The translations under genes and the position numbers were made by a program. The notes under the pieces were generated by a model that worked only from the letters and a program-made list of their open reading frames with translations, was not told the DNA's origin and made no database searches. From contig NZ_CP050138.1 of NCBI RefSeq assembly GCF_013344685.1, positions 1 to 64,000 of the forward strand: a stretch of 64,000 bases of DNA, in the 5' to 3' direction. Every line of letters starts with the position of its first letter. Positions within the stretch are counted from its first letter, which is position 1. This DNA comes from Sphingomonas sp. CL5.1. Its GTDB lineage: Bacteria; Pseudomonadota; Alphaproteobacteria; Sphingomonadales; Sphingomonadaceae. Positions 25,804-52,263 of the stretch are shown here, one piece after another.

Positions 25804-25806
25804 TCC

Positions 25807-31611: not shown

Positions 31612-31684
31612 GAGGTAGAAGCTCAGACGGCCGCCGCGGGCAAACCTAACTATTCCTTCCTGGAGTACGTAACCTTCGGATCAG

Positions 31685-32308: not shown

Positions 32309-32757
32309 TGTACCTTGACCGGCGCGCCTGGAGGGGCACGCGGGGCCGGTGGCACCGGGCCCGATGCGGCGCCCTTGGTAAAATATTTCGCAGGGCAGGC
32401 GCCTGCCACAAAGGATCCGATCGCCGCCATCAAGAGAAGCAGCGAAAACAGGATAACGATCGTGAAATCGAACTTGATCTTGTGGAGGTTATCAAGCTTG
32501 CGAATATCGTTGAGCACGCTTTGCATGACCAGACGAAGCCGCAGCAAAGCGCCGATCATGATGAGATTGGCAAGCCCCGCAAAGATGAGCAGCATCGAGC
32601 GAGCACCTGTGCTCATATCGAAGCTTGCAACGGCAAACCACAAGCCACCGGTTAACGTCATAATGATCAGAGGCGACTGCCACAGGAAGCCGTTCAAAGA
32701 ACGAAAATCCTGGCAGCGCTGGTCGTATATCACCGCGTCATCTACAGGGATGGTCAT
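32305..32757 (-). CDS. Three-helix membrane protein of unknown function
   Basis: A 150-aa protein that I do not recognise. Hydrophobic helices lie at about 26-43 (SPLIIMTLTGGLWFAVAS), 51-72 (MLLIFAGLANLIMIGALL) and 96-118 (FTIVILFSLLLLMAAIGSFV), with a basic coil between helices 2 and 3 and a Pro-rich C-terminal tail. ATG 32757 is preferred; 32766 would add three residues. It is coupled to the methyltransferase gene and transcribed divergently from sspA. A membrane effector role is only a guess from location. Confidence 0.6.
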   Translation of the reverse strand: MTIPVDDAVIYDQRCQDFRSLNGFLWQSPLIIMTLTGGLWFAVASFDMSTGARSMLLIFAGLANLIMIGALLRLRLVMQSVLNDIRKLDNLHKIKFDFTIVILFSLLLLMAAIGSFVAGACPAKYFTKGAASGPVPPAPRAPPGAPVKVQ

Positions 32758-32825
32758 GCCTCGCACTGCTCCTTTGCCACACAGTCATAGCACGAACCGC
32801 GCCGCTGCGCGTGGGCGCGACTGAT

Positions 32826-33998
32826 ATGCAGTCGGTGCCCATCTATCTCGATGGATTCGCCACGCTTCCACTGGCGGATGAAGCGCGCGCCGCGATGCTG
32901 GCCGTCTGGGAACAGCCCGGCAACGCAGGCTCCCCGAACGCTTCTGGCGAACGTGCCGCGCGAATCATCGCCGATGCACGGGCCGACGTCGCCAGTTTGA
33001 TTGGAGCCACCGCGTCGGAAATCATCTTCACCTCCGGGGCGACCGAAGCGAACAATCTCGCGTTGCTCGGCGTCGCCACGGCGACCCGATCTCAGTCCGC
33101 GCGGAGGCGGATTGTCGTCTCGGCGATCGAACATAAGGCGGTGCTGGAGCCAGCAGCCGCCCTTGCCGCAGAGGGATTTGAGGTCAGAATTGCGCCGGTC
33201 GACCGACATGGTCGCCTCGATCTCGAAGCGATGAGCGGGTTGCTCGATGAGACGGTATTGCTGGTCTCGGTGATGCTCGTCAATAACGAGACAGGGGTGA
33301 TCCAGCCGGTAGAAGAGGTAGCGGCCCTCGCCCATCGCGTGGGGGCCTATGTTCATACCGACGCGGCCCAGGCGGCAGGCAAAATTGCTATTGATGTGGC
33401 CGCGCTCGACGTCGACTACCTCAGCCTCTCGGCCCACAAATGCTACGGCCCGATGGGCGTGGGTGCGCTGTATGTAGCCGCCGGTATGCCGGCCCCCGTC
33501 CCGCTGATGCGCGGCGGTGGGCAGCAATCCGGCATCCGGCCGGGCACCGAGCCGGTTCCGTTGATCGCAGGCTTCGGAGCAGCCGCCCGTGTGGCTATCG
33601 CCGACCTCGCCCGAGGCGAAATCGCCGGGCCGACGGCGCGGATCGGCCGGTTGCTCGAAGGACTGGCGAGCCGACAACTGCGGTTTGCGCGGATCACGGG
33701 CGATCACGCGGTGGTGCCCGGCAGCGCCGCAATCGCGATCGACGGCATCGATGGCGATAGCCTTTGCGCCCAGCTGGCGCGTGACGTGTCGCTGTCGACC
33801 GGATCGGCTTGCACCAGCGGACAGATCAGAATCTCCCATGTCCTTGAAGCGATGGGATTTTCTGAAGAGACTGCGCGATCGGTCGTTCGCATTTTCTGCG
33901 ATCGTACTGTGACCGATGCCGATATCGACCGCGCGACTGAAGCCATTGTGGCATCTATCCACCGTTCTCAGCTTGCGACCGGAGAGGTTCGCCAGTAG
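32826..33998 (+). CDS. sspA: Cysteine desulfurase (SspA-type)
   Basis: A 390-aa PLP enzyme that takes sulfur from cysteine. PLP-binding elements are visible: SGATEANNLALLG, SAIEHKAVLEPAAALA with the stacking His, HTDAAQAAG, and the Lys in LSAHKCYGPMGVGALY. The catalytic Cys is in LSTGSACTSG (about 322). ATG 32826 is chosen because MQSVPIYLDGFATLPL matches the usual NifS/IscS start. It lies directly upstream of sspBCD, so it is assigned as the sulfur donor of the phosphorothioation pathway rather than a housekeeping IscS. Confidence 0.88.
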   Translation: MQSVPIYLDGFATLPLADEARAAMLAVWEQPGNAGSPNASGERAARIIADARADVASLIGATASEIIFTSGATEANNLALLGVATATRSQSARRRIVVSAIEHKAVLEPAAALAAEGFEVRIAPVDRHGRLDLEAMSGLLDETVLLVSVMLVNNETGVIQPVEEVAALAHRVGAYVHTDAAQAAGKIAIDVAALDVDYLSLSAHKCYGPMGVGALYVAAGMPAPVPLMRGGGQQSGIRPGTEPVPLIAGFGAAARVAIADLARGEIAGPTARIGRLLEGLASRQLRFARITGDHAVVPGSAAIAIDGIDGDSLCAQLARDVSLSTGSACTSGQIRISHVLEAMGFSEETARSVVRIFCDRTVTDADIDRATEAIVASIHRSQLATGEVRQ

Positions 33999-34007
33999 CG
34001 TTCTCTC

Positions 34008-34928
34008 ATGAGACAAGGCGCGTTCGACAATGATTCGAGAGGGCAGTTCGCGGGACATGAAACCTTCCCGCTTCGCCTGCTATGGCTGAAGAAGGCATTC
34101 GATGCCGTAGCGGAGGGGGCGCCATCTGGAACATTTCAAGAACAAGATGCTATCGCACGCTTTGGCGTAGGGCGCAACATGGCCGCTTCGATCCGCTATT
34201 GGGCGCTCGCCTCGCGGTTCTTCGAGGAGAGCGATAAGCACATTAGGCCGAGCGCGCTCGGCGCACTCGTCCTCGCCGACAAGGGGTTCGACCCCTATGT
34301 CGAACAAGCCTCAACCGTATGGCTGACGCATTGGCACATCGCCAGCGACGCGCACATGACGACCACGGCCTATTATGCCTTCAATGCCCTCGCAGCGATT
34401 GAGTTTGATCCGGCAACGCTGATCGAGGAGCTATTGACGTTGGTCACAGCACGCGGATGGCGGGCGACACGCGGCACCCTGAAGCGCGACGTTGAAGTGT
34501 TCCTGCGCAGTTATGTCCGTCGCGGCGATGCTCTGAATGAGGATGCGGCCGAACCTTTGCTTGCTGAACTCGGGCTCATTCGGGAAGCCCGTCTTGGCGG
34601 CTGGTACGAATTCGTGCGCGGACCAAAGCCCAGCCTGCACGATGGCGTCTTTGCCTATGCGCTTGCGCAGTTCTGGGAACGACAGGGCGGCTCGACCGCG
34701 CTGACCGCCGAACAAATCTGCTATGCGCCCGGTTCGCCAGGCCGGGTCTTCAAGCTTGATGAAGACAGCGTGATCACACGGCTGATGCATCTCGACGAGA
34801 TTACCGATGATGCGTGGCAATGGACCGACACCGCAGGCCTGCGCCAGATTCAGCGGCGCGCCGAGATCGATCCGCTGGAGCTAGCCGCGCTTGCGTATCA
34901 GCGCCACGCGTTGGCGGAAGCGGCATGA
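34008..34928 (+). CDS. sspB: DUF4007 protein, SspB-type phosphorothioation factor
   Basis: A 306-aa protein with the DUF4007 signature near the start (GQFAGHETFPLRLLWLKKAF) followed by FGVGRNMAASIRYWALASRF and a helical C-terminal part. In the SspABCD system the DUF4007 protein SspB nicks DNA as part of single-strand phosphorothioate installation. It follows sspA by 9 bp and overlaps sspC by 4 bp. The presence of DUF4007, not the DndD/DndE genes, is the main reason for calling this Ssp and not Dnd. Confidence 0.85.
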   Translation: MRQGAFDNDSRGQFAGHETFPLRLLWLKKAFDAVAEGAPSGTFQEQDAIARFGVGRNMAASIRYWALASRFFEESDKHIRPSALGALVLADKGFDPYVEQASTVWLTHWHIASDAHMTTTAYYAFNALAAIEFDPATLIEELLTLVTARGWRATRGTLKRDVEVFLRSYVRRGDALNEDAAEPLLAELGLIREARLGGWYEFVRGPKPSLHDGVFAYALAQFWERQGGSTALTAEQICYAPGSPGRVFKLDEDSVITRLMHLDEITDDAWQWTDTAGLRQIQRRAEIDPLELAALAYQRHALAEAA

Positions 34929-37900
34929 CCAAGCTGTCGAAAATCGTCGAAATCGATCGTCGCTTTGCTCGGTCGGCGCGCATTGATGCCGATCTGAACG
35001 GGACACCGCCTCTCGTCGGCTACGTGATGCAAGCGAGTGTGGCCAAGGCCCTGACGACGCTCGCCGATAGCCAGATTGAGAGCCATCAGGGCGCCTTCAC
35101 CTGGACCGGCCCCTATGGTGGCGGTAAATCGAGCGCAGCCCTGCTCGTTGCCAATTTGATCGCTGGTGCGCCCGAAAATCGCAAGATTGCGCGCAAGATC
35201 GCCGGCAAAGCGCTCACGACCGTCTATCAGAAGGCGTTCCCGGAGGCTTCCGGTCCCTGGCACGTCGTCGCAGTGACCGGGAGCCGGATGCGGTTGCGCG
35301 ACGCCATTGCCGACGCCGCCGCAATCACGTTCCAATGGGATGAAGTGACGAGGCAAAGCGCTGGTTCCAGCGACGATGGCCTGATCACCCAGATCAAACG
35401 ATCGAGCGAGACGCACAGCAGTGGAACGCTGGTTGTGCTCGACGAACTCGGCAAGCTCCTCGAGCATGAAGCGCTCGACGGGGGCGATATCCATCTACTC
35501 CAGGACATCGCCGAGCATGCATCGCGCAGTGGTGGCCGACTTGTCGTCATCGGCATCCTACACCAGTCCTTCGAGCAATATGCCGCCCGCGCCGCGCGAG
35601 ACGCTCGCCAGGAATGGGCGAAGGTGCAGGGCCGTTTCCACGACATCGCGTTCTTGAGTGGCGCCGATGAGACTGTCGCGCTGCTTGGCCGCGCAATCTC
35701 CTGCACGGCTCATCCCGACATAACAAAAGCCAGCGCGCGTGACGTCGCGCAGGCTGTGGCGCTGCGCCGGCCTACCGAAGTCGATGCTCTGACTGAGGCC
35801 TTAGCGGCGACCTGGCCGCTGAACCCCGTCACCGCGCTGCTGCTAGGACCGGTATCACGTGCCCGTTTCGCGCAGAATGAGCGAAGCGTCTTCGGATTCC
35901 TCAGTTCGGCAGAACCCGCCGGTTTCCAAGAGTTTCTGCAGGCCACGGAGGCCGGAGAGGCCACCTATGATCCGGCGCGTCTCTGGGATTACCTAGCGTC
36001 CAATTTTGGAATGGCGCTTGCCGGCGGCAATGACGGCAACCGGTTCAGTCTCGCCTTCGAGGCTATCGAGCGCGCCGCGGTCAAAGGCGGCGATACCCAT
36101 GTCGCGCTGACCAAGGCCGCTGCCGTCATCGAGTTTTTCCGCAACGGATCCGGGTTGGCCTTGGCGGACGATATCCTAGCGCAGGCGGTCCCCGGGATCG
36201 GGGCCGACCAGCGCCGCGACGCGATCGCTGACCTGCTCGACTGGGCAGTCCTGATCCGCCAACCGCGGCTGAAGGGCTACGCTCTCTTCGCAGGCAGCGA
36301 TTTCGACCTTGAAGAGGCCATCGGTCGATCGGTCACGCCGATCGACACCACCCAGCTAGAAGGCATCCCGCAGCGGGTCGGCCTCGGCTTTGCGACCGCG
36401 AAGCGGCATTATTTCCTGACAGGCGCGCTGAGGACGTTCGAGATCACCCTTCAACTTGTTGGCGCAAGCGACACGGCAGAGAGCGTCGCGGCTGACATTC
36501 TGGCGAAGCCGGCGCGGGGTAGCGGTACATTGGCGCTGGTCCTAAGCGACGGCTCGATCGGTAAGGGCGAGGTCGATCCACTTTGTAAGGCGATCGCCAA
36601 ACGATTGACGAAAAGCGGGCGCGTCATCGCGGTGGGTGGCGCTACCGACAGTTTCGCGCTCCGCGCCAGCGCCGCGGAATTGATCGCGGTCGAACGCGTT
36701 TTCCGGGATCATCCCCAATTGGAGGGCGATCGGATTGCCCGGCGCGAGATCGCCGCCCGGCAATCGCAGTGCATCGACGTCCTGCATCGCACGCTTGAGG
36801 CCGCGCTCGAAAGTGCCAAGTGGATCCTCTCGCCCAAGCCCGGCAAGGCCTTGCGCGAGCCCTTGGCGTTGATCGCAAGCGCCCTGGCTGACGCAGGCTA
36901 TCCGGACGCGCCAATCCTCAAGAGCGAGCTACTTCAGCGCGACCGCCCATCATCCAATTCGATGGCGGCACTGCGTGATCTTGCCCACGCGATGGTCAGC
37001 CGGTTCGGCACCTCCGATCTTGGCATGACGGGTTATCCCGCTGAACTCGGCCTCTACCTCACCGTCGTGAAGCCGTTCGGTCTCCACCGTGAGATCGAAC
37101 CCGGTCGGTTCGATTTTGCGCCCCCTGACGACAGCGAGCAGGGTCGTTCGCTTCAGCCGGCGTGGGCGCTGATTGATACGGCAGGCGACCAAAATCTGGA
37201 GGAAGTCTACGCGCGCTGGGCAAAGCCGCCTTACGGTATCAAGGCCGGGGTGATGCCGGTGCTGGCCCTTACCTATATGCTGGCAAAGCGCGATACAGTG
37301 GCCGTCTACATCGACGGCGTGTTTCAGACCGCGATCGACGATGTCATCGTCGACAAGCTTCTGCAGCGCCCCGCCGACTTCAGGCTTCGCAAAATCGACC
37401 GCTCTGTACGCGAGACTGCCTTCCTGAGCGGCCTTGCCCGCCACTTTGGCGTCGATCATGATGGTGCGTCCCTTCCCGTCGCCCAAGCCCTTTATCAGCG
37501 CTTCGAAGCGTTGCCGACCTTCGCAGCACGAACCAATCGGCTGAGTGAAGACACTCGGCTTGTTCGGCGGGTCGTGCTCAAGTCGACCGATCCCGAAGCA
37601 ATGCTGTTCGACGATCTGCCCGCTGCTTTCGGCGATCGGCTGACGCCCGATCTGGTGGTTGGGGCGCTGGCCGAGTGCGAGGCGAGCTACCCGGCCCTTC
37701 TCGACGAACTCCGCGCGGCGCTGGCCCGTTCGCTCGGGGTCGATCCGCTCACCTTCACCGGTATGGGCGAGCGCGCGGCCATCACCCATGGGCTCACCAA
37801 TGACTATAATTTCGAAGCATTCGCCGATCGCGCCGCGGCGATCGAAGCGGGTAGCGGCGATATCGAGGGCCTGGTCAGCATACTGCTCCATCGCCCGGCG

Positions 37901-38239
37901 CACGGCTGGTCGGATCGTGACCGCGAACAGGCGTTGACCGAAGTCGCGCGTTATGGCCGCCGGTTCCGTGAACTCGAAGCGCTAGCGGTCGTTCGCGATC
38001 GGGGCGCGCATACTGAGGCTCTCGCGCTCGTGGTTGGGCTTGATCCGTTGACCCCGCCCTTGATGCGTAGTTTCGTCCTGACCGACGTCGAAAAAACAGC
38101 TGCGGCAGGCCTTGCCGATCGTGTCCTCGCGACCTTGGGCGCTGATCGCGCTGATCGGCGGATGCAGTTGGCGGCTCTCGCCCGGGCCGTCGCGAGCCTC
38201 GCTGGCGAAGACGACCGGGAAGAGGCGGAAGCGGCATGA
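34925..38239 (+). CDS. sspC: SspC-type large P-loop ATPase
   Basis: A 1104-aa ATPase. Walker A is GPYGGGKSS (about 62-70) and Walker B is TLVVLDELGKLLEHEAL (about 164-180), followed by DIAEHASRSGGRLVVIGILHQSF. The remaining 800 residues are helical with no other motif I recognise. In the SspABCD pathway SspC supplies the ATPase activity. The start is ATG 34925, overlapping the sspB stop; the open frame from 34814 is a shadow. It overlaps sspD by 4 bp. Confidence 0.83.
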   Translation: MTKLSKIVEIDRRFARSARIDADLNGTPPLVGYVMQASVAKALTTLADSQIESHQGAFTWTGPYGGGKSSAALLVANLIAGAPENRKIARKIAGKALTTVYQKAFPEASGPWHVVAVTGSRMRLRDAIADAAAITFQWDEVTRQSAGSSDDGLITQIKRSSETHSSGTLVVLDELGKLLEHEALDGGDIHLLQDIAEHASRSGGRLVVIGILHQSFEQYAARAARDARQEWAKVQGRFHDIAFLSGADETVALLGRAISCTAHPDITKASARDVAQAVALRRPTEVDALTEALAATWPLNPVTALLLGPVSRARFAQNERSVFGFLSSAEPAGFQEFLQATEAGEATYDPARLWDYLASNFGMALAGGNDGNRFSLAFEAIERAAVKGGDTHVALTKAAAVIEFFRNGSGLALADDILAQAVPGIGADQRRDAIADLLDWAVLIRQPRLKGYALFAGSDFDLEEAIGRSVTPIDTTQLEGIPQRVGLGFATAKRHYFLTGALRTFEITLQLVGASDTAESVAADILAKPARGSGTLALVLSDGSIGKGEVDPLCKAIAKRLTKSGRVIAVGGATDSFALRASAAELIAVERVFRDHPQLEGDRIARREIAARQSQCIDVLHRTLEAALESAKWILSPKPGKALREPLALIASALADAGYPDAPILKSELLQRDRPSSNSMAALRDLAHAMVSRFGTSDLGMTGYPAELGLYLTVVKPFGLHREIEPGRFDFAPPDDSEQGRSLQPAWALIDTAGDQNLEEVYARWAKPPYGIKAGVMPVLALTYMLAKRDTVAVYIDGVFQTAIDDVIVDKLLQRPADFRLRKIDRSVRETAFLSGLARHFGVDHDGASLPVAQALYQRFEALPTFAARTNRLSEDTRLVRRVVLKSTDPEAMLFDDLPAAFGDRLTPDLVVGALAECEASYPALLDELRAALARSLGVDPLTFTGMGERAAITHGLTNDYNFEAFADRAAAIEAGSGDIEGLVSILLHRPAHGWSDRDREQALTEVARYGRRFRELEALAVVRDRGAHTEALALVVGLDPLTPPLMRSFVLTDVEKTAAAGLADRVLATLGADRADRRMQLAALARAVASLAGEDDREEAEAA

Positions 38240-39075
38240 CCCAAGAGCGACATATATTGGGAATCTCGGGGGGCCGGGACAGTGCCGCGCTCGCGGTCTA
38301 CATGAGGCAATATCATCCCGCCCTTCCGATCGAATATTTCTTCACCGACACCGGTAAGGAACTGCCGGAGGTCTACGAGTTTCTCGACAAGCTCGAAGGG
38401 TTTCTCGGCAAGCCGATCAAGCGGCTAAACCCCGATCGCGACTTCGATTTCTGGCTGTCGGAATATGGTAATTTTCTCCCGTCGCCGCGCACCCGCTGGT
38501 GCACGCGGCAACTCAAATTGCGCCCACTCGAACATTGGCTGCGCGCCGATCTGGATGCAGGTATCACCGTACACTCCTACGTTGCGATCCGGTCCGACGA
38601 GCCGAGCCGCGAAGGCTATCAGTCGACCCACACGAATATGAAGGTACATCTACCGCTGCGGGATGCCGGGATCGATCGGGCCGGTGTAATCGAGATCCTC
38701 AGCCAAGCCGACGTTGGCGAGCCGGCTTATTATGGCTGGCGGTCCCGATCGGGCTGCACCTTCTGCTTCTTTCAGCAGAAGATCGAATGGGTCAGGCTGG
38801 CTGAACACCACCCGCAGCGCTTCGCCGAAGCGGTCGACTATGAGAAGACGGCGCTCAAAGACGGGTCTCCCTTCACATGGAGCCAGGGCGAAAGTCTAAC
38901 CGAGCTGATCGAACCCAAGAGAGTGGATCAGATCAAGCTCGACTATGACAAGCGGCGGGAACGGCTCCGGCGCAACCGCAGGATCAACCCCCTGTCAGCG
39001 CGCGCATCGGAGACGATCGACGATGTCTATGGCATCGATGAAGCGGCTGGCGGCTGCGTCATCTGCCATAAGTAG
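38236..39075 (+). CDS. sspD: SspD-type PAPS-reductase-like ATP pyrophosphatase
   Basis: A 279-aa protein of the PP-loop/PAPS-reductase family with the PP-loop ISGGRDSAALAVYM at about 10-23. Cys residues at RWCTRQLK, SGCTFCFF and the C-terminal CVICHK could hold an iron-sulfur cluster, as in DndC-like proteins. It activates the DNA backbone for sulfur insertion in the SspABCD scheme. It is the last gene of the operon and its stop lies 5 bp from the convergent stop of sspH. Confidence 0.88.
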   Translation: MTQERHILGISGGRDSAALAVYMRQYHPALPIEYFFTDTGKELPEVYEFLDKLEGFLGKPIKRLNPDRDFDFWLSEYGNFLPSPRTRWCTRQLKLRPLEHWLRADLDAGITVHSYVAIRSDEPSREGYQSTHTNMKVHLPLRDAGIDRAGVIEILSQADVGEPAYYGWRSRSGCTFCFFQQKIEWVRLAEHHPQRFAEAVDYEKTALKDGSPFTWSQGESLTELIEPKRVDQIKLDYDKRRERLRRNRRINPLSARASETIDDVYGIDEAAGGCVICHK

Positions 39076-39080
39076 CGCCG

Positions 39081-42000
39081 TCATCCGCTAAGCCCGTCAT
39101 TGACGATTATGGCATCGACAGCACGCTCGATGTCGTCATCCGACAGGAATGGTGCCTGCGCATAGATGATGCCGGGTTCGCCCGACAGGCGGGCCGCGAG
39201 ATGGCCAAGACCCAGCAACTGCTCCGCGCCTTTCACCCCCAAGGCAATCTCGGATGTGCCGACGCTCGCGACCTTGAGGATCAACCGGTTGCCGAGATTG
39301 TCGCGCAACTGCATCGGCATCACGTTCGCATCCGGGCGCTGCGCCGCGAAGATCAGATGGATGCCCGCGGCGCGCGCCTTGACCCCGAGCCGGGAAACAT
39401 TGGCGGTCACCGCCGCCTTATAATCCTCGGTCAGCATCCACTCAGCGAACTCGTCATGGACCAGGAATTTGAGCGGTAGCCGGTCAGACGGGCCGGCCTT
39501 GGTATTGAAGGCCCGGATGTCACGCGCGCCATGGACACGAAACAGCTCATACCGTCGCTCCATCTCGGCGACGAGCCCCTCCATTACCTCTATTGCCTGA
39601 CCCTGCTCGACAATGACTCCGCCCTGCAGATGGGGGAGCCGCTCGACTGCCGCATAATCCACACCCATTTTCGGATCGATCAGGTGAATATGCGCAAGCG
39701 CGCTGGGATTGGTCGCAGCTATATCCAGCAGTAGCGCCTGGATCAGCACCGATTTGCCACTACCGGTCGCGCCGGCGACCAGCGTGTGTGGCTCGTGCGG
39801 TTGGCCGCCGCCAAAGGCGCCACCGAGGTTGAGATAAAGGATCTCGCCATCGAGCTCCTTCAGGCCCAGCACGAAGGAGGTATTGACCCCGGCGGGGTTC
39901 CGATTGATCTCCCGGCGCGCCCACACATCCCACAGCGAAACGATCTGCCGCTGTGGCCTCGCCACGCCCACCACGATCTCGCCGGGAAGGGGGGAAATGG
40001 AAATCAGGCGCAGCCCGTGCGTCGTCAACAAGGCCGATTGCCGAGCTTCGATATCTTCGACCCGCAGTCGGTCACTGCCCATGAAGCGAATAAGGGCGGC
40101 GTTCGGCGTCAGCCTCGTACCGACAATCTTTGCCTGGAGGGTGTAGCCAAGAAGCGCAGTCCGCAGCTTCTGCGCCGTCTGTTCAAGCCAGGCCTGTTCC
40201 TCCGCTGAATCCTCATGCGACCGCTCGGCATTGCTTTGGATCAGCGCCTCAAGCGACTGAGCGGCCGGCACCTGTATTACGTTCGGTGTCGGAATAGGGG
40301 GAGGACCGGCGACCGGCTCCGTCGCGCTTTCGACGGCCTGTTCCTCCACCTCCGACGCTACGAACGGTTCAGAGATCGGCGAAGCGTCGTCTTCGTCAGA
40401 TGCCATCCTCGGCGAGACGGACATTGCAGGCCCAGATTGCGGAGACGGCTTCGGCACCGATCCCGACGAAATGCCGCCATCACCGTCGTCATCATCGTCG
40501 TCATCGCTGATGTCGCTTATGATCGGTGTCGGCAGAGCGGCCTTAGGATCGATGGCGATCGCCTTGGTCCAGTCAACGCGCGGTGCCGGATCCCGATAAC
40601 TTGCCTTATCCCAGAGATGGATTTCTCCGAGCGCCGAGCGGACGCTGCCCAGCGGAGTCTTAGCCTCATAGGCCTTGATCAGTTGCCGTAGGCCCTCGCG
40701 AGTGAACGTCTCCTGCAAACCGTTGGCGATGTCGGTGATCGGGTCCTGCTCTCCGAGCGAACTCCCATCGTCCGCTGGACCAGATACCAGAATGTGGGAG
40801 TAGCCGCGCAGATCAATGGGGACCGAACCGCGGCGGATGCCATCACGAACCCGTTCGAGCAGCGCGGCCTGTCCCAGCGCAGCGGTGCCGTCGAGAAGAA
40901 GGTCGGCGATCCGCGAAAGCCAAAGGTCGCGGTCGAGCCGACCTGGGTCGCCAAATAAGGCGTCGTCCATACGCGTGACCGTATGCCGCAGCTGCTGGCG
41001 TGACTTGCGTGACGCTTCGGCAAGTCCCGACGCGTCGACATATTTGGCTTCGGTAACGATCGCGCGCAGCGTTGCGTTGCCGTCCGGCGCTGGCGCCACC
41101 GAAAGCGCGAGGATATCGGCGATCCCTTCTTCGCGCTGGCCGAGCCACTCGGCATAATCGTCGAGCAGGAACCAGGCCACGGTCGCATTGCCGCCGAGTT
41201 CCTCCGCGACCAGCGCACGGCTGAGCACGAGCCCGATCAATTCGCCCGCCGAAACGCCGCGCTTGGCAGCGCGCAACACGATATCGCCAGAGATGGCAGC
41301 GGCATCGTCGATCATACGCCGCGCCAGTGCCGACAACTTATCGTCGCTCAGGCCGAGCGACAGCTCGGTAAGGCGACGCCGAACGAGCACATGAAGAATT
41401 CGCAATTCGGACGTCGATGAAACGACCATGTTGCGGCCGTGTGTGCGCTGACGCCGGTAGCGGATGACGCTGATGCCCTGGGCAGCGAGCTGCCGCTTGT
41501 CGAGCAGGTCATCATAGGTTGCGACCCATTCAGCAAGCGCATGGACCTCATCGAACATCGACTTGAGGCCATGGTCCTGAAAGGAAATTTGCCGGGCCGG
41601 AAGATAGTGCTCATTCACGCCATGCGACTGACGACGAATGACTCCCGCAACCGCGTCGACATAGGCCCAACCCGCATCAGGCTGACGCGGACACGTCAAA
41701 TAGCTAGTGGCCTTGAGCTCGTCCTCGGCGGTCACGCGCCGATAAGACCAACGCGCCGGTACATGCTCCAGTAAGCCGGGATTGTGGGCTTCGGCCGGGA
41801 CGGGGAACCAGGCCTCTCGCGCCTGGCGTGAGACAACGTCATGGAGGAAGGCGACATCGATCTCTCGCGTCTTGCCGTCGCCGCCCGCGCCGCCGCTATC
41901 GAGCATGACGCCGATGCGGAGCTTCGACATGAAGTTGCGTGATGTTTCGCTGACTACGACAGCGTCAGGGTCGCCTTCGGACCGGTCGAGCAGCTCGCCA

Positions 42001-44513
42001 TAGACATGTCCGAGCTTCGATCGATCGCGATGCCGAACAAGGACGTTGCAATGAACTTCGTCCTGATCTTGCACCGAACTCAACGCATTGACGGTGGCAA
42101 GCGGTAGGCCTGCGGCGTCGCAATTGTACAGCATGATGCTGAGATTGGAGCGTTCGTGCGGCTGAAGGTCGAGATAGCGTTCTAGGAGCCCACGAATCTG
42201 GCGTGAGGCTTCAGCCGGATCAACATCGGTGGACGCCTCGGAAGGGTCGCGCACCGGGCGTTCGAGCAACGAATAGTCATTCGTCGTGCTCGTCTCCGCA
42301 AGAAGAACCGGCTCTGTGCCATCATACCCGACAGCGATTTCTGGATAGAGCGGATGAGCGAGCTCCTCCCGAAGGTCCGAGAAGAAGAGCCGCGAATCGC
42401 CGAAATTCACTTCGACGTCAGACAAGAGGTAGTCGACCAAGCCGGTTAGCGACCGGGTCTTCACCGCTGTTCCGGCAAGACGCATCGGATGCCATGGCGC
42501 GATGATGGCAGAGAGGGCAGCGCCGGTCACCATCACGGCCCCGATGCCGAGTATCGGCTCCCACAGGTCGCGCCGGTTGATATCGCCACCAGCATGGACA
42601 CCCAGACTGCGAAGCAGCGCTCCATAAGCTTCGACCTGTTCAAGAAGAACAGGTGAGGCGTAGCCGGAACTCTGCAAAGCGGTCAGGGCTTCGGTATATT
42701 TCTCGGCAAATGCCTCCCAGGCCGCGCCGATCGCCCGACCGCCCTCCGCGGTGATACGCCCGGCAGTAACCGCGATCTTGAGTTGCTTCGGAAAGAGTTT
42801 GCCAACGTCCTCACCGGCATTGGTGCGCGGGACCAGCGATCCCGCGTCCTGCCCGAAAGCGGGCTGCAATGTGCCGACGTCTGCGAGGGAAACTGACTGC
42901 AGCGCCCCTTTGTGGCTGACCGCGAGCCGGGCGACATTGGTTCGCATCAGCGGCCGCTTGAGCAACCGGGCGAGATCGCTCGGCAATTCGAGACCAATCG
43001 CATTGGGCTGCGCCTGCCAGACAAGCTGAACGACGGCACGTTCGGCGCTTGCGCCAGTGCCCACCTCAAGAACGATGTCGAACTTGATCTGCAAGCTCGC
43101 GCGCGAAACAGACACGTTGGCCCTGTATTTCTTGCGGCGCTTGGCGCGTTCAAGGAGCGCCTCATATTCAAATAGATAGGGCACGTCCCACGTTACGGCC
43201 GCGCCCATCAACGGTTTCAGGCCGCGATAGCGCAGGCCGAAAGCCAGGCCGACATCGGCATTGACGTCGAGCCATTGGGCGCGACTGCGCCGGGAGGATC
43301 TGATCGTCAGCTTCCGTGCGTTGCCATAGGGCGTCACCTGGCCGAACAAACGCTCAATCGCGCGCAACAGGCCGTCGGCGAAATCGCTGCACTCAATCGG
43401 GCGCCCGAAGATGAAGCGCTCCCATTTCGCCCGGAGCGCCTTGTCCTGCACGAGATCGTCGCGATGATTCTCAAAAAACTCGCGATCGTCGTCGCGGGTT
43501 TCCTTGAGCGAGCGCGTTTTGAGGACCTTGAGATACTCGATATCGGCATCGCTCAACCGGCCCGGCAGCTCGAACTCGAAGAAGGTGACGGTCTCCTCGG
43601 GGAGGGTCGTCTTTTTCTGCTTCAAGCCGGAGAACAACTGCAGGATATTCTCGGCCTCCCACTCGAAGGTCGACAAGGCCTCGGCTTCGGCTCCCCAGCT
43701 CGGAGCGGCGTCGATGAAGGCCTCAATCGTCTCATAAGCTGCAGGGATGATGTCATCGCGGACCTGCTCGAACTGGGATCGAAGCTCTTCGCTTTCGATG
43801 ATCTGCCGGTTGGAGCGCTGCTTGGCGAGGAGCGGTTTCCGGTCGCTGACGAGTTTTTCGTAAAGCCGCTTCCAGCGGCGGAACTGCTCAAGATCCTTTT
43901 CCCGCAGGCCTAGGAAATAGCCGCTGTCGCGCGGAAGATGGAGCGCCGGCAGCGCCCAACCCAAGGCTTCCGAGACGGGCTTGGACTGCTCCTCGATGCA
44001 TTGACGCGTGAGCGCAACATAATGGGAAATCTGGTGAAGCGTCCAATCGTCAGCTTCGTTGAGCCCACGCAGCGCCGCCTTCCAGGCCCCAATCTGGCTG
44101 TCCGGCAACCCCAGACCCGCACAGGCGGCATCGACCCACGGCTGTGGATCTTCGGTCAGTTGCTTGGCACCGAGGAGCGTCACATCCTGCAGCGAGGCGC
44201 CCTGATCGTCGTCGGTATTGGCGAGGAGAAGGGCCGGCTTGTCACATTCCGCATTGCGGATCGCGACCGTCCGTTCGTCCGTCACGACATGCTGGGGCAA
44301 ATCGTAGGCGGCAACCAAGCTCCGTGGAATCGCGATCTTCAGGCGGAGATCGGTCGTCGGATCCTTGAGCAACGCCATCGTAATGGCGGCGACCTGCTCG
44401 CCGGTCAGACGGTCGAGCAGGAAGCGAGCCACACCGTCATCCTCGGCGATCGCGTCGAGCCGGAGCCGCAATGATGTGGCGCCTGCGGCGCCGATCAGTT
44501 CTGATGGTTTCAC
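39081..44513 (-). CDS. sspH: Very large FtsK/HerA-type translocase, SspH candidate
   Basis: An 1810-aa protein. The C-terminal quarter (about 1500-1800) is an FtsK-like motor: Walker A GATGSGKSVLIQALLLDIA (about 1575-1595), DPKMGVDYAAVE, Walker B LKFLVHDEFAEWML, then HLIFAAQRPDANVMPMQLRD. An acidic low-complexity linker (DISDDDDDDDGDGG) lies near 1335. The N-terminal 1300 residues resemble nothing I can name. In known SspFGH and DndFGH loci the third gene is a DNA-binding ATPase of this kind. It overlaps sspG by 4 bp. The Ssp letter is inferred from order and context. Confidence 0.72.
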   Translation of the reverse strand: MKPSELIGAAGATSLRLRLDAIAEDDGVARFLLDRLTGEQVAAITMALLKDPTTDLRLKIAIPRSLVAAYDLPQHVVTDERTVAIRNAECDKPALLLANTDDDQGASLQDVTLLGAKQLTEDPQPWVDAACAGLGLPDSQIGAWKAALRGLNEADDWTLHQISHYVALTRQCIEEQSKPVSEALGWALPALHLPRDSGYFLGLREKDLEQFRRWKRLYEKLVSDRKPLLAKQRSNRQIIESEELRSQFEQVRDDIIPAAYETIEAFIDAAPSWGAEAEALSTFEWEAENILQLFSGLKQKKTTLPEETVTFFEFELPGRLSDADIEYLKVLKTRSLKETRDDDREFFENHRDDLVQDKALRAKWERFIFGRPIECSDFADGLLRAIERLFGQVTPYGNARKLTIRSSRRSRAQWLDVNADVGLAFGLRYRGLKPLMGAAVTWDVPYLFEYEALLERAKRRKKYRANVSVSRASLQIKFDIVLEVGTGASAERAVVQLVWQAQPNAIGLELPSDLARLLKRPLMRTNVARLAVSHKGALQSVSLADVGTLQPAFGQDAGSLVPRTNAGEDVGKLFPKQLKIAVTAGRITAEGGRAIGAAWEAFAEKYTEALTALQSSGYASPVLLEQVEAYGALLRSLGVHAGGDINRRDLWEPILGIGAVMVTGAALSAIIAPWHPMRLAGTAVKTRSLTGLVDYLLSDVEVNFGDSRLFFSDLREELAHPLYPEIAVGYDGTEPVLLAETSTTNDYSLLERPVRDPSEASTDVDPAEASRQIRGLLERYLDLQPHERSNLSIMLYNCDAAGLPLATVNALSSVQDQDEVHCNVLVRHRDRSKLGHVYGELLDRSEGDPDAVVVSETSRNFMSKLRIGVMLDSGGAGGDGKTREIDVAFLHDVVSRQAREAWFPVPAEAHNPGLLEHVPARWSYRRVTAEDELKATSYLTCPRQPDAGWAYVDAVAGVIRRQSHGVNEHYLPARQISFQDHGLKSMFDEVHALAEWVATYDDLLDKRQLAAQGISVIRYRRQRTHGRNMVVSSTSELRILHVLVRRRLTELSLGLSDDKLSALARRMIDDAAAISGDIVLRAAKRGVSAGELIGLVLSRALVAEELGGNATVAWFLLDDYAEWLGQREEGIADILALSVAPAPDGNATLRAIVTEAKYVDASGLAEASRKSRQQLRHTVTRMDDALFGDPGRLDRDLWLSRIADLLLDGTAALGQAALLERVRDGIRRGSVPIDLRGYSHILVSGPADDGSSLGEQDPITDIANGLQETFTREGLRQLIKAYEAKTPLGSVRSALGEIHLWDKASYRDPAPRVDWTKAIAIDPKAALPTPIISDISDDDDDDDGDGGISSGSVPKPSPQSGPAMSVSPRMASDEDDASPISEPFVASEVEEQAVESATEPVAGPPPIPTPNVIQVPAAQSLEALIQSNAERSHEDSAEEQAWLEQTAQKLRTALLGYTLQAKIVGTRLTPNAALIRFMGSDRLRVEDIEARQSALLTTHGLRLISISPLPGEIVVGVARPQRQIVSLWDVWARREINRNPAGVNTSFVLGLKELDGEILYLNLGGAFGGGQPHEPHTLVAGATGSGKSVLIQALLLDIAATNPSALAHIHLIDPKMGVDYAAVERLPHLQGGVIVEQGQAIEVMEGLVAEMERRYELFRVHGARDIRAFNTKAGPSDRLPLKFLVHDEFAEWMLTEDYKAAVTANVSRLGVKARAAGIHLIFAAQRPDANVMPMQLRDNLGNRLILKVASVGTSEIALGVKGAEQLLGLGHLAARLSGEPGIIYAQAPFLSDDDIERAVDAIIVNDGLSG

Positions 44514-46060
44514 GCCGCCTCGGTCCGCTGGAATGGGTTTTCGACATAGGCGCAGGAGTCCGATAGACGCTTGAGCAGCCCAAGGCTCGCAAGCCGTTCT
44601 TCGAGCCGCCTGGCATTGTCGGAGAAGTCCTCCTGATCGGCATTCCCGCTCGCGATCAGACCGCGCGCCTGCCCATCGCCGATGACGATCCCGTACCGAT
44701 CGTAAAGGCGCGCAAGGAAGTCCTTGAACTCGATACGACGGTCGACACAGGCGACGACCAGCGTCTTGAGCAGGCGGTCAGTTGGCGCATAGCGAACGCG
44801 GCGGCTTGAGCGGCGCGACGATAGCCCAATCGCGCGTGCCCAAGTCGCATGAACCTTGCCGACATGCTGTTTGTGGCGCGTGACGGCACGATCGATCAGC
44901 TTTGTGACCAACTTGTCGGGCGCGCCCGCAATATCTTCGCTATCGTCCGGATCGGGCCAGTCGAAGGCTTTCTTGAGAATTTCCGCCGCGTTGAGCAGCG
45001 GCTCGTCCGACGCAACGGCGGCCTGCCACTCGGGCGTCTCGGTCGCAGCGCGAATGTACCGTTCGAGTGCTTGTTGCGGGAGCATATTATTGTGCTGAAA
45101 AGAGTCGGCCGAAAGATCGCGCACAACCGACTTCTTCGGAGAAACGATCTCGCACACGATTGTGATCGGGTCGCGGTCGAGCACCTCGCGCGAGCGGTCG
45201 AGCTGGTAGAGGATCATGTTGAGACCAGTGACCGACACCAGGTGGGGAATTGCGTCATAGGCAGGGATGGGCAAGGCGAGAATTGCCAGCCAATCCTCTG
45301 TCAGCCGGTCGAAGATCGGATGGGTCGAGCAAGGGAGGAATGCCCCCCCGCGCTCGGCACGGGCCAATTGCGGTTCGCCCTGCAGCGCACGCACCATGCC
45401 GTCATAGGGCGCCGCATTTTCAAGGAAGCGCTCGACCAGCTTGCTGCGTAACTCGGCGGAACGGCTGCTCCGGCACAGCATCAAGTAGAGGATTTCCCCG
45501 GTACGCGCGAAGAAGCGGCGGTCGGTCGAAATGCCGCCCTTCGCGCTGACGCTGACGTCCTCGTAAAGCGCGTTGGGGCCGAAGGGGAAGACGAACTTGG
45601 AACTCCAGCGCTTATTGCTGGTCCCTTCGATGGCCGAACCCTGGAGGAATTTCACGACCGCAGCGAAGTCTTGAAACTGCTCGAAACGCTCACGCAGATA
45701 AGAAAAATCGGGATGCTCAAGGCCGCCCGCGCTCTGCGCCATTTTCTCGAGCCAAAGTGCCCAGGCCGCCTCGTCGGAGCGGGTCTCGGCCTCGACCGTC
45801 ATAATGTGCGGGTTGTTGAAGATGAGATTGCGCAGCTTCAGCTGCACCTGCGGCCGGTAGGAAAGGCTGTTGAGGGCACCCTCATCAAGTGCTCGGCCGG
45901 AGTTATGCTCGGCCAGCAGCACCGTGAGAAACTCCATGAAGGTGAGCCAAGGCGATTGCTCGTCATGGAGACGATGACCCCAGATCGCCTCATCCACCCA
46001 CATTTGCGGGCCGGACTTGTCCTCAAACAGGACCGGGCGGTTCAGAATTTCCATGCTCAT
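44510..46060 (-). CDS. sspG: SspG candidate, middle gene of the restriction operon
   Basis: A 516-aa soluble protein without a catalytic motif I can identify. Visible are an N-terminal EDKSGPQMWVDEAIWGHRLH, then FPFGPNALYEDVSVSAKGGI, RFFARTGEILYLMLCRSS and a basic C-terminal third (LSSRRSSRRVRYAPTDRLLK). These resemble the DndG-like middle protein of phosphorothioate restriction modules. It overlaps both neighbours by 4 bp (ATGA), so the three gene products are made together. The assignment rests on position between an F-like ATPase and an H-like motor. Confidence 0.65.
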   Translation of the reverse strand: MSMEILNRPVLFEDKSGPQMWVDEAIWGHRLHDEQSPWLTFMEFLTVLLAEHNSGRALDEGALNSLSYRPQVQLKLRNLIFNNPHIMTVEAETRSDEAAWALWLEKMAQSAGGLEHPDFSYLRERFEQFQDFAAVVKFLQGSAIEGTSNKRWSSKFVFPFGPNALYEDVSVSAKGGISTDRRFFARTGEILYLMLCRSSRSAELRSKLVERFLENAAPYDGMVRALQGEPQLARAERGGAFLPCSTHPIFDRLTEDWLAILALPIPAYDAIPHLVSVTGLNMILYQLDRSREVLDRDPITIVCEIVSPKKSVVRDLSADSFQHNNMLPQQALERYIRAATETPEWQAAVASDEPLLNAAEILKKAFDWPDPDDSEDIAGAPDKLVTKLIDRAVTRHKQHVGKVHATWARAIGLSSRRSSRRVRYAPTDRLLKTLVVACVDRRIEFKDFLARLYDRYGIVIGDGQARGLIASGNADQEDFSDNARRLEERLASLGLLKRLSDSCAYVENPFQRTEAA

Positions 46061-47820
46061 GCCCGCACCATCACGCGGCGCTGGATGGCACGCCCGTCTC
46101 CCCCAAGTTCGATGAAACGCAAAACAAGCTCGCCATCGACCGCCTGATCATCGCCATCCAGTTCCCGTCGCTTCTCGGTCTCGCGCAGCAGGCGCGCCTT
46201 GAACGCGAGCAGATCCTCATGGCATTCGAGCGAAAAGCTGCTGGGAAGCGCGCCTTCCGCGACGCGACCCAGAAATTCGAACCGCGTCGGTGAGAGCGCC
46301 AGCACCACCAGTGGGATCTCGTTTCCACGAACGAGGCGGACCGACACGCCAAACCCACCGGCACCGTCCGCGACAAGATTGACTTCCTCTCCCGCGGCGC
46401 GAGGGACGGAGATCAACTCATCCAGCAAGGGGCTGCGTTTTGATTGCGAATAGCTCCCCGACGTAGCCAGGACGAGCTCATCCTGATTCTGGACGAGCAT
46501 GCCGGTGAAGATGCGATTGAGCCCTCGCACGACCTGACCCAGGGCCTGTCTCGGCAGCGCTTGCTTCGCTGCGAGCTTATCGGCCACCTCGAGAAAGAGC
46601 CCTGCAAAACGAAACACCGTCAGATCCCAGAGCTGATAACTCTCGGCCAGGGCATCGGGCAGCGTGAAGAAGAGCCGCTGTCGTTGAGCCCGTAAGGCCG
46701 CGAGGAATTGGCTCCGATCGGTTCCCTCATCGCCTTCCAGATACGCGCGCTGAGCCTGCGCGAAAGCGGGCGTGGCGCCGTATATCGGATCGCTCAAAAC
46801 GAGGGCGGCATAGGGTTCGGCTTGGGCCGGATCGTCAGCGCCATAGACCAGAAGGTTGTCGACCCGATTGCTGGTTTCGGCCCCAATCCCAAAGAGGTTG
46901 AGCTTTTTAAACAGCTCGGTCTTCTCCGCGCGGCTCTGCTTGAGATTCTCGCCGAAGATGTTCCGGTAGACACTGGCGAGATCGGCGCGTCCGCTTTGCT
47001 GAATGCCGGGCACATCGGCGCAAGACATGAGTCCGTCGCGCGCTGCCGGGTGCCCGAGCAGGCTGTTGGCAACCAAAGCAAGGAGCTGGCGCACGGGAAA
47101 GTGGCCGCCATTGCGCTCGCTCAGTTCGATCAGCGCGGTGAGGCGGCGCTGGAACGGGTCGCTCTCTTCCTCCGCCATAAGCCTGCGGCGATTTTCGAGG
47201 ATCGGACAAACCTGACCCTCGGCTTGTGAAGGGCAACTCGCACAGCCAACCCATCCCTCATGGGTCGTGATTGCTTCGATGATGTCAGCCGTCATCTTGG
47301 CGGCAGGCGCGCGGCTCAGATCCTTCAGTTCCAGCCGCATTCCGACATCAGAGGTCTTCCCGACGACGAGCAGATCCTCGACCACTGTCGCTAGGCGTTT
47401 GACGGTGGGGGTGTCGGGCGCTGTCTTGAGCTTCTCCAGCAGCTGACCGTGATTGGCCGCGAGCAGGTAAAATGTCGATGATGCCGGATCGATTACGTCG
47501 CGCGCGAAAGCCTCGATGAGCTCGGCACCTTCATCGTCCATCAACTCGCTCAGATCCTTGACGATCACGAGCGTCCGACCTTCGAGGGCAAGCCGCTGGA
47601 TCTTCGCACCCTGGTTCCAAACCGCAGCGTCGCCGCCCAGCGCAATCCAAACTTCGCGGCAATGATAGGTTTTGCCGTCGCCAGCGGTGCCGGTGATGAT
47701 CTGCGAGAGAGGGGTGTCGCTTTGAAAATTGTCGAGCAAGGCCGGGAGAAACTGCGCCGGGAGCGTAATCGGCGTGATCTTGTGCCGCTTCAGAGCCCGC
47801 TGAATCGATTCATCATACAT
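46057..47820 (-). CDS. sspF: SspF candidate, P-loop protein with Cys cluster
   Basis: A protein of about 587 aa. Walker A is TGTAGDGKTYH (about 43-53), with a Walker B-like TLVIVKDLSELMDDEG further on. A CASC-x7-C cluster near residues 195-206 (GWVGCASCPSQAEGQVCP) probably binds zinc. The first gene of the known F-G-H phosphorothioate restriction operons is a P-loop protein of this type. I place the start at ATG 47820 (MYDESIQRALKRH); the frame is open to 48036, but that part is low-quality sequence. No clear ribosome site is seen, so the start is uncertain. Confidence 0.68.
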   Translation of the reverse strand: MYDESIQRALKRHKITPITLPAQFLPALLDNFQSDTPLSQIITGTAGDGKTYHCREVWIALGGDAAVWNQGAKIQRLALEGRTLVIVKDLSELMDDEGAELIEAFARDVIDPASSTFYLLAANHGQLLEKLKTAPDTPTVKRLATVVEDLLVVGKTSDVGMRLELKDLSRAPAAKMTADIIEAITTHEGWVGCASCPSQAEGQVCPILENRRRLMAEEESDPFQRRLTALIELSERNGGHFPVRQLLALVANSLLGHPAARDGLMSCADVPGIQQSGRADLASVYRNIFGENLKQSRAEKTELFKKLNLFGIGAETSNRVDNLLVYGADDPAQAEPYAALVLSDPIYGATPAFAQAQRAYLEGDEGTDRSQFLAALRAQRQRLFFTLPDALAESYQLWDLTVFRFAGLFLEVADKLAAKQALPRQALGQVVRGLNRIFTGMLVQNQDELVLATSGSYSQSKRSPLLDELISVPRAAGEEVNLVADGAGGFGVSVRLVRGNEIPLVVLALSPTRFEFLGRVAEGALPSSFSLECHEDLLAFKARLLRETEKRRELDGDDQAVDGELVLRFIELGGDGRAIQRRVMVRA

Positions 47821-48273
47821 GTTGTCGTTGGTAGGAATGGGGCCATAATTCCGTAGGAATCGAACCCAAGTCGCTGTTGACGATGTTTCCGACAAACCTA
47901 TCCCCCCAAACCTGCTCCCACCTCCTAAGGCATACGGTCGAGAGCGCAAAGGAGAGACGTGCGAATATCTCGATTGGCTGTGCGCCGATAGCAGGGCATA
48001 CGCCCCAAGATCAAACAGAACGGCAATGAATTGCAAGCTGCGTTTGTAATCGTCGCCGCAGCTTAGTCGCCCGCCTAAGCTTTATGACGGCGAAAATCGC
48101 TACTCAAGCATAGAATTGGATAGCCGACATGCAGTAGTTTAAGGCAATATTCGGTCGCCAACTGGCCGGGCTGGGTCGATGGCTGCCGCGCAAAAGGCCT
48201 GTTGCCCGCTTACATTGTTGTCTCGACGAAGACCGACCCGATTTGGCTTACCATCTTATTAACTAGCCACTTG
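47821..48273. other. Intergenic stretch between sspF and the relaxase gene
   Basis: About 450 bp of lower GC content without a convincing gene. The + frame at 48202-48594 overlaps the relaxase gene and is a shadow. The sspF promoter must lie here. The direct repeat TAGGAAT occurs twice near 47832 and 47854. I see no RNA gene. Confidence 0.5.
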
Positions 48274-49413
48274 CTAACGATCGCGGTCCCGAGGCTTTCG
48301 TTCAATCGGGATCGGCGTTTGGCCTTCAGCAACATCTTTATCGGTGTCGCGCGAACGACTGCCCGCCGAACCCTTCGCCCGATCTGCCATCATGATCTCC
48401 CGCGCCCGCTCCAACCGCCGCGACACCGCCGCCGGCATATCGGCCACGAACCCTGCGATATCCTCTGCCAGCGCGCGATCCTCGTCCTTCCCGGTTGCCG
48501 CCAGCGCTGCCGCGGCCTCTGCGTAAGCCCCCCGGATCTGCTTCTGGCGGCCGAGCGCCAGCACGTCCTCCACTCGCCGCTCCGGATTCTGTGACCGTGC
48601 AAACGCCTGCGCGCGCTCTTCGATCAGCCGGTTGAGATCCAAATCCCTCCCCTGCCCCGCTGTCCGTGCCTCCAGATGGTGCGCCGGCGAGCGCACCCGC
48701 TTCTGGACGTGGCCGCGCGCGCGGCGCGGCGTCGCTTCGGCGGCGATACCGCGCTGGCGCAATTCATGGGCGAAGCTTTCGCGCCAATGATGAAGGTCGG
48801 CCTTGCGCGGATTGAACCGCGCCCCGTCCGCACCCTGAGTCGCGACGGTCAGATGGACATGGGCGTGAGCGGTGTCGGTGTGGAGCGCCACCATATAGCT
48901 GAACTGCCCTTCAAACTCGACGCGCGCGAACGCGTGGACGGCATCATGGATGGTCGCGGCATCGGTTGTACCGCCGGGCATCGACAACACCATCGACATC
49001 GAGGTCGGACGGTCTTTGCCATGCGCGTTCATCGCCTGATCGAGCATGTCCCAGTCGGCGGCAATCGCCTTCAACCGCTTCTCATCGGTGATGATCTCGC
49101 CCTCGCTGCTGCGAACCTCAAGCTTCCCATGCCGCGAGATATAGCCAAAATGCTCGGCAAGATGCCTGGCGCCACGCTGTTTGCCCGAGATCTTGACCAT
49201 GACCTCTGGGGCCTTGCGCACGATCCGCTCAAGCTTGGCGCGCGCCTCGGCCGGCGACAACATCGGCGCAGCGGCGCTTCCGCCCCTGCCCTTGCCACCG
49301 CCAGAACGGATCCGCAGCGTCCCCCCGCGCAGGCTGCGCTTGCCCCCGGTCGGCGGTCGCCAGGCTTCCATCAGACTGGGGAGCGGCAGGACGCCATCAT
49401 CATCCTCAGTCAT
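48274..49413 (-). CDS. Relaxase (VirD2-like, HUH type)
   Basis: A 379-aa DNA relaxase that nicks oriT and pilots the strand. The catalytic Tyr is probably in HFGYISRHG (about residue 91). The metal-binding three-His motif is HTDTAHAHVHLTV (about 176-188). It is preceded by SMSMVLSMPGGT. The C-terminal third is a basic, helical tail (RRLERAREIMMADRAKG). The start overlaps the mobC gene by 8 bp, so the two are co-expressed. Confidence 0.87.
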   Translation of the reverse strand: MTEDDDGVLPLPSLMEAWRPPTGGKRSLRGGTLRIRSGGGKGRGGSAAAPMLSPAEARAKLERIVRKAPEVMVKISGKQRGARHLAEHFGYISRHGKLEVRSSEGEIITDEKRLKAIAADWDMLDQAMNAHGKDRPTSMSMVLSMPGGTTDAATIHDAVHAFARVEFEGQFSYMVALHTDTAHAHVHLTVATQGADGARFNPRKADLHHWRESFAHELRQRGIAAEATPRRARGHVQKRVRSPAHHLEARTAGQGRDLDLNRLIEERAQAFARSQNPERRVEDVLALGRQKQIRGAYAEAAAALAATGKDEDRALAEDIAGFVADMPAAVSRRLERAREIMMADRAKGSAGSRSRDTDKDVAEGQTPIPIERKPRDRDR

Positions 49414-51934: not shown

Positions 51935-51947
51935 CGGCGCCGCGCCG

Positions 51948-52145
51948 TCAGGATTCATAGTCGCGCGGACCATCGCGCAGGTTGCGCTCATAATGCTCGC
52001 GCGACGACCAGTCGCCACCGCCGCCGATGCCGGGTCCGACATAACGGAACAGGTAGACGGTGATGACGAAGCAGACGAATGCGAACAGCAACGCATGGTC
52101 TGGATGACGCGAAAAATAGTCGGCCACGGTGGGTCTCCTTGGCAT
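51948..52145 (-). CDS. Small membrane protein upstream of parA
   Basis: A 65-aa protein with one hydrophobic helix (ALLFAFVCFVITVYLFRYV, about 18-36), a Gly-rich turn (GPGIGGGGDWS) and a charged tail (REHYERNLRDGPRDYES). The ATG at 52145 is preceded by CAAGGAGACC. It is 13 bp upstream of parA and probably co-transcribed. I do not recognise it. Confidence 0.6.
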   Translation of the reverse strand: MPRRPTVADYFSRHPDHALLFAFVCFVITVYLFRYVGPGIGGGGDWSSREHYERNLRDGPRDYES

Positions 52146-52263
52146 GTTCCAGGGAAACCGGTCGGTCCCCTCACCGCGCAGCAAAACGCGGCCGCTCTCG
52201 CCGCGCAGCCTCCCCTCTCGTGCCGGGAGCAAGGCCCGATGGAATGTCTGGGCGGCACCGACG

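Follow-up and report, generated by a model that had tools for sequence, protein, structure and literature searches.

In Vibrio anguillarum FF-93, according to the available parts of the report (PMC8092258), SspBCD and a cysteine desulfurase place sulfur into one DNA strand at CCA, and SspFGH damages DNA lacking this phosphorothioate (PT) mark and suppresses phage replication; sspF, sspG, and sspH are each required, and SspFGH alone harms unmarked cells. The DNA analyzed here (the window) comprises the initial 64,000 nucleotides of a 126,708-bp contig (NZ_CP050138.1) of Sphingomonas sp. CL5.1, whose 4.57 Mb genome consists of two contigs. Judged by gene identity, seven of its genes form an SspABCD-SspFGH phosphorothioate system of this published kind (PMC8092258). 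With high confidence, the locus is considered an apparently intact defense system and exchangeable plasmid cargo, which is joined on the side of its modification arm by a third part, a pair of genes termed TM and MT. Gene content, motifs, layout, plasmid setting, and the slot occupied by the locus were read directly from the DNA.

All seven open reading frames (ORFs) that the initial annotation had assigned to an SspABCD operon and a facing SspFGH-type operon exist, and the best PADLOC match of each protein was its own Ssp model, over nearly full length. The modification arm lies on the plus strand. It begins with sspA (32826..33998; PADLOC SspA 1.4e-115; Pfam Aminotran_5), predicted to encode a cysteine desulfurase, the lysine and cysteine motifs of which are conserved in an alignment with a solved desulfurase. 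The DUF4007 protein SspB (34008..34928; PADLOC SspB 3.2e-104) accounts for the one DUF4007 match in the whole genome, and its sole sequence relative in the PDB at E 0.001 is the solved SspB (6juf, 2.1e-23). The P-loop ATPase SspC (34925..38239; PADLOC SspC E=0, 1128.8 bits) contains the motif GPYGGGKS, invariant across four aligned sequences, and starts at 34925, not at the in-frame start upstream. The last gene of this arm, sspD (38236..39075; PADLOC SspD 8.6e-132), encodes a protein resembling 3′-phosphoadenosine-5′-phosphosulfate (PAPS) reductase with the PP-loop motif SGGRDS. The DUF4007 domain and the PAPS-reductase likeness, both proposed before, were recovered by Pfam (DUF4007 and PAPS_reduct, respectively). 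On the minus strand, sspH (39081..44513; PADLOC SspH E=0, 2386.4 bits) encodes the 1810-aa protein previously described as an FtsK-like motor, which carries GATGSGKS and, at its C end, the FtsK-type domain (FtsK_SpoIIIE, 3e-31); it is accompanied by sspG (44510..46060; PADLOC SspG 1.9e-220) and by sspF (46057..47895; PADLOC SspF 1.2e-240), the product of which contains the Walker A motif GTAGDGKT. SspC, SspF, and SspG gave no match in the Pfam scan. With the strong PADLOC matches of SspF, SspG, and SspH, the result that had been named earlier as a refutation, a lack of SspF/G/H profile matches among the minus-strand proteins, did not occur.

The tight coupling claimed for both operons was also found: sspA and sspB are separated by 9 bp, the sspB/sspC and sspC/sspD junctions overlap by 4 bp each, and so do both junctions of the three minus-strand genes. 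The two arms converge, the sspD stop ending at 39075 and that of sspH beginning at 39081, which leaves 5 bp between them. Because of this layout, the mark and attack modules presumably have separate promoters, as had been reasoned earlier; a scan for the sigma-70 consensus was uninformative (one site vs 3.7 expected). The sspF boundary required revision. The start had been set at the ATG at 47820, but the conserved stretch W[VI][RK]FLRNYGPIPTNDNMYDE lies upstream of this codon and is kept in nine of ten SspF sequences, counting that of the window (the exception, L056, has broken frames), so sspF probably extends over 46057-47895 with a TTG start. How this start is annotated varies among relatives: the Sphingopyxis record uses the same leucine, that of S. 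americanum the later methionine.

Like FF-93, for which the available parts of PMC8092258 describe sspB, sspC, and sspD together with sspF, sspG, and sspH, a Walker A motif in SspF, and an FtsK-like C end in SspH, the locus lacks sspE. As previously claimed, the genome gives no sign of SspE, PF03235 (DUF262) having no match genome-wide at E 0.001 (DUF1524 was not searched on its own). Unlike FF-93, where iscS is used according to the same source, sspA is part of the operon here; furthermore, the set resides on a plasmid and has the TM/MT pair attached. With DndABCDE-DndFGH systems it shares a desulfurase and a PAPS-reductase-like enzyme (the DndA and DndC models match SspA and SspD), an FtsK/HerA-type motor in the attack arm, and TM-MT, found beside dnd genes as a fusion; however, none of the seven proteins matched the DndB, DndD, DndE, DndF, DndG, or DndH models (E 0.01). 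Type 4 BREX (bacteriophage exclusion) likewise has homologues of BrxC/SspC, PAPS reductase, and DUF4007 proteins, as stated in the available parts of PMC12839542, and PADLOC BrxC and BrxP match SspC and SspD, respectively. It differs from the present locus, which has an FGH arm and in which PglZ and BrxL were found neither among the seven proteins (E 0.01) nor among 97 other ORFs of the contig (1e-15). By analogy with V. anguillarum, from which we infer both the sulfur chemistry and the attack, SspA would draw sulfur from cysteine and SspD would activate it, SspB and SspC would pick the site and nick it, giving one DNA strand a backbone sulfur, and SspF, SspG, and SspH would move along DNA and damage that without the mark.

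The seven genes stood as the extent of the locus, to which two further minus-strand genes at 31685-32757, absent from the initial annotation, have to be added. TM (32305..32757), oriented divergently from sspA, encodes a 150-aa hydrophobic protein of no family with three long predicted helices and a signature of approximately FRxLNxxxxQxPxxxxTLTGGLWF. It had no match in PADLOC or NCBIfam, none of significance in Pfam, and no PDB relative by sequence; its structure model reached a mean pLDDT (predicted local distance difference test) of 81.2 and a pTM (predicted template modeling score) of 0.61. From its hydrophobic sequence, and from one source that so names a homologue, TM is apparently a membrane protein. 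Its partner MT (31685..32305) is a predicted class I methyltransferase of 206 aa dependent on S-adenosylmethionine (SAM), with matches to Pfam Methyltransf_11/25. It resembles TehB-type methyltransferases in matching TehB models weakly (NCBIfam TehB 2.7e-9) and a solved TehB (4.2e-5), but stays far below the NCBIfam cut-off (36.8 bits vs 218), is also matched by other class I methyltransferases, and, unlike TehB, occurs paired with, or fused to, a protein outside the known families. MT is thus nearest, if weakly, to TehB-type and other small-molecule methyltransferases. No description of the pair was found in the open-licence literature or in PADLOC, Pfam, and NCBIfam, and the accessible passages of PMC10853773 contain no such pair.

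The distribution of the pair was examined in 31 loci (the window, three plasmids, and 27 genome contigs). Both members occur in seven of them (the window, L033, L040, L045, L052, L053, and L055), always in the same place and orientation, and those loci share 66-72% (TM) and 49-57% (MT) identity with the window; in L027, L036, L042, and L048, a distant TM (24-25%) occurs without MT, and L034 retains a remnant. As this sample had been chosen by SspC, specificity was tested with TM alone as query. TM was detected in five of 396 genomes of the order, in one of 385 of the class (the window's own), and in five of 397 of the family; as the draws overlap, these correspond to eight distinct carriers. 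In all eight, TM is located at phosphorothioation genes: G000 and G325 have it divergent from sspA, G221 and G1145 between sspC and sspD, and G1044 immediately behind sspA; in G028, G023, and G992, a TM-MT fusion adjoins dnd genes. DndD and DndE of G028 and DndD of G023 passed the NCBIfam cut-offs; the dnd genes of G992 were recognized by tblastn with the G028 proteins. Among 72,556 plasmid records, seven matched TM, apparently representing four plasmids, three of them deposited twice (equal length and coordinates; the match lists of the duplicates show the same neighbors). In the one region inspected per plasmid, all four carry TM at ssp or dnd genes, two of them, in Rhizobium, as fusions. 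Hence, 12 of the 12 non-redundant carriers (eight genomes and four plasmids) have TM beside ssp or dnd genes, and in five of the 12, all beside dnd, it is fused to MT. In Sphingopyxis macrogoltabida, the pair is found with sspABCD, at a distance of ∼40 kb from sspFGH, which ties the pair to the modification arm. Beside one dnd cluster (L093, 7924-8886), a TIR-like open frame, seen by eye in the sequence, overlaps the end of the TM-MT fusion; in Rhizobium phaseoli (L105, 11325-13087), a TusA-family sulfurtransferase gene and an FtsK-type gene lie between the fusion and dndD.

The convergent arrangement of the two arms was encountered in all 22 of the 31 loci with SspH (some of them near-duplicates, for example L027 and L048 with identical SspC); the other nine lack SspH in the available DNA. 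Convergence is thus the rule in this clade and no peculiarity of the window. The distance between sspD and sspH was 5-99 bp in 12 of the 22 loci and 882-2189 bp in the remaining 10, and because of the latter the tightness seen in the window is ruled out as a requirement. Regulation via the 5-bp junction was also considered and rejected, no stable fold (z −0.14) and no terminator-like site being found there. Five of the 10 wide gaps (L033, L034, L036, L040, and L045) contain a DUF262 gene. The protein encoded in these gaps, and after sspD in L039, has ∼340 aa, compared with 776 aa for the SspE-like protein of L026; the gene is accompanied by another open frame of equal orientation. When plasmid layouts were read by eye from 60 of 65 SspC and all 37 SspF matches, at least 31 records had both arms, 18 of them convergent and close together, 11 on one strand (one with an sspF remnant only), and two with the arms facing each other but ∼48 kb apart (C to F). 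The one-strand arrangement was seen in more distant plasmid relatives, for example Microvirga ossetica. In NZ_CP009431.1 (L025, L107), sspABCD and sspFGH are ∼40 kb apart, and sspD has genes for a protein kinase and for a Tn3 transposase next to it; the modification and attack arms can, accordingly, part.

By its gene content, the contig is a conjugative plasmid. Its conjugative type IV secretion system (T4SS; 18213..28789, plus strand) comprises VirB4-, VirB5-, VirB6-, VirB9-, VirB10-, and VirB11-like proteins and a VirD4-like coupling protein, as judged by Pfam (CagE_TrbE_VirB, T4SS, TrbL, CagX, TrbI, T2SSE, and T4SS-DNA_transf) and by annotated homologues. It is followed by abiEi-abiEii (29948..31611, plus strand; Pfam AbiEi_4 and AbiEii; PADLOC AbiEi and AbiEii), then by the segment containing ssp (31612..48378), by the genes for a relaxase (Pfam Relaxase) and a MobC/NikA-like protein (48274..49942, minus strand; the NikA-like and MobC matches are both just below cut-off), and by parB (KorB-like) and parA (50235..52276, minus strand; Pfam ParB_N, KorB, and AAA_31). 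The closest relatives are plasmids typed conjugative (MOBP/MPF_T), the nearest one from Sphingomonas bisphenolicum. Together with the flanking transfer and partitioning genes, this agrees with the earlier description of the set as mobile. Its placement "inside a conjugation region" was right in that conjugation genes flank it; more exactly, the locus occupies a cargo slot, not recognized before, between the T4SS/abiE end and the relaxase. At its beginning (1-11502), the contig carries genes of the heavy-metal efflux type (HlyD/CusB-type, AcrB-type, and P-type ATPase).

Six sister plasmids, which cover the whole relaxase-par query at ≥88% identity (36 records matched; three more distant plasmids among the other 30 were also compared), delimit this slot, as their homology to the window breaks off at its edges: on the left at 31610 (pUPO218, pBAR4), 31589 (pANTQ-1), or 31613 (pEP2, pSWIT02, S. 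baderi unnamed4), and on the right at 48379 in four plasmids, 48347 in pUPO218, and 48192 in S. baderi. Selected genes of the slots were run against the PADLOC models. That of pBAR4 holds an annotated ABC-three-component system matching the candidate PDC-M68; that of pEP2 Gabija (GajA 2.7e-303, GajB 3.9e-243) and the candidate PDC-S06; that of S. baderi Pycsar genes and a TIR/JAB/E1-E2 set; that of pSWIT02 Shango SngABC and AbiD; that of pANTQ-1 PDC-S06, part of a type III restriction enzyme, and many metabolic genes; and that of pUPO218 an inverted, diverged ssp together with sensor-kinase and other genes. Two of the six rest mainly on PADLOC candidate systems. Among the more distant plasmids, the outgroup S. 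naphthae plasmid (L062), without abiE, has a small helix-turn-helix gene alone in the slot, and both plasmids of S. yanoikuyae carry abiE plus two SOS-peptidase-like genes (in one case also IS110), with no named defense system beyond abiE at the slot. As a control, 97 of the 100 other contig ORFs of ≥110 aa were scanned (the other three lay across joins of sequence pieces), and only AbiE models matched (PADLOC, E 1e-15); besides abiEii at the slot, a second contig ORF, outside 31612-48378, was hit by two AbiEii models. Base composition gave no foreign signature (GC 0.60-0.65 in 2-kb steps from 20000 to 59999). In summary, seven sphingomonad plasmids carry differing defense genes (two of the plasmids ssp) in a sharp-edged slot between abiEii and the relaxase gene, and ssp is exchangeable cargo of a sphingomonad conjugative plasmid.

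We read TM and the TehB-like MT as an accessory of the sulfur-modification arm, the activity of which is deduced from likeness. On balance, we lean towards the view that the pair is an undescribed phosphorothioation accessory common to Ssp and Dnd, occurring as two genes or as a fusion, which would act on the sulfur of the modification arm or, alternatively, be a membrane effector that responds when the mark is lost. TehB methylates tellurium and selenium compounds. Because a desulfurase adjoins, the simplest guess is that the pair methylates sulfide or a thiol escaping from that enzyme, which is its most likely role, if a tentative one. The main alternative, a membrane effector coupled to the sulfur mark, is possible but likewise speculative; in general shape, TM is presumably similar to the small membrane effectors of other defense systems. 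MT would belong in the cytosol, where SAM is, but versions with three and with four apparent helices occur. Several points weigh against an accessory role or the reading of the locus as a whole: the sulfur mark in this DNA is derived from gene identity; the number of apparent helices in TM (three vs four, counted by eye) seems to vary; the pair is dispensable to the core, both members being present in 7/31 loci and a distant TM alone in four; MT relatives occur without SspC in two of the four genomes carrying MT; MT-only matches are found in many plasmids, MT alone being a common enzyme; and the protein database contains 160 additional TM relatives (120 listed) that lie outside the 12/12 count. 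That the pair is a passenger defense or toxin module merely sharing islands with phosphorothioation genes would agree with its patchiness among ssp loci and across the ssp tree, its changing position (divergently oriented next to sspA, lying between sspC and sspD, or behind sspA or dndA), and the TIR-like gene adjoining one dnd case. A passenger, however, would also occur elsewhere, whereas all 12 non-redundant carriers have it at ssp or dnd loci, two of them between sspC and sspD, so we consider this explanation rather unlikely.

The origin and integrity of the core locus were weighed in the same manner. With pUPO218 (Rhizorhabdus wittichii MPO218, NZ_CP059321.1), the window shares the backbone (∼89%), the slot, the seven genes, and their convergent layout, but there the ssp block is inverted, ∼74-75% identical, and has an IS5 transposase gene within the sspF match; within the 43 kb examined, pUPO218 had no TM or MT match. 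The text of PMC9195938, which names this plasmid, contains neither "defense" nor "phosphorothio". The ssp genes of both plasmids group as sisters in the trees of SspC (30 rows, support 85/86) and of SspH (22 rows, 99/98), the main groups of which appear similar by eye, as would be expected if ssp had entered a common plasmid ancestor once and merely evolved fast. Yet at four-fold degenerate sites, six ssp genes (all but sspF, omitted for its interruption in pUPO218) show differences at 1200 of 2002 positions (59.9%), compared with 479 of 1873 (25.6%) for ten backbone genes. Together with the inversion relative to the backbone, this divergence renders a single insertion improbable and favors two independent captures out of a related pool. 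Such interruption of sspF also bears on whether the locus could be a relic that perhaps still makes marks but has a dead FGH arm. Attack genes are broken in pUPO218 (L023, 27800-30565; sspF), in S. xenophagum p1 (L026, 20460-25876; sspH frame broken and the gene unannotated), and in pBAR3 (L078, 17853-18455; sspF shortened near IS6100), the modification genes being retained in these relatives, which is consistent with an attack arm being costly to maintain. In the window, by contrast, sspF, sspG, and sspH are open over nearly the whole models, with no internal stop, and it is very unlikely that its attack arm is dead.

The core adds a new member to a published kind of system and sits in a plasmid defense slot; with its attached pair, it is a variant that merits testing. 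If the proposed role holds, an accessory follows phosphorothioation across two target-selecting machines, Ssp and Dnd, and its sharing would point to a common step, the transfer of sulfur, or to a common use of the mark. The plasmid slot between mating genes and relaxase gene is a natural place to seek new defense systems, and this plasmid family invites the question of how a plasmid arriving in a cell unmarked survives its own SspFGH.

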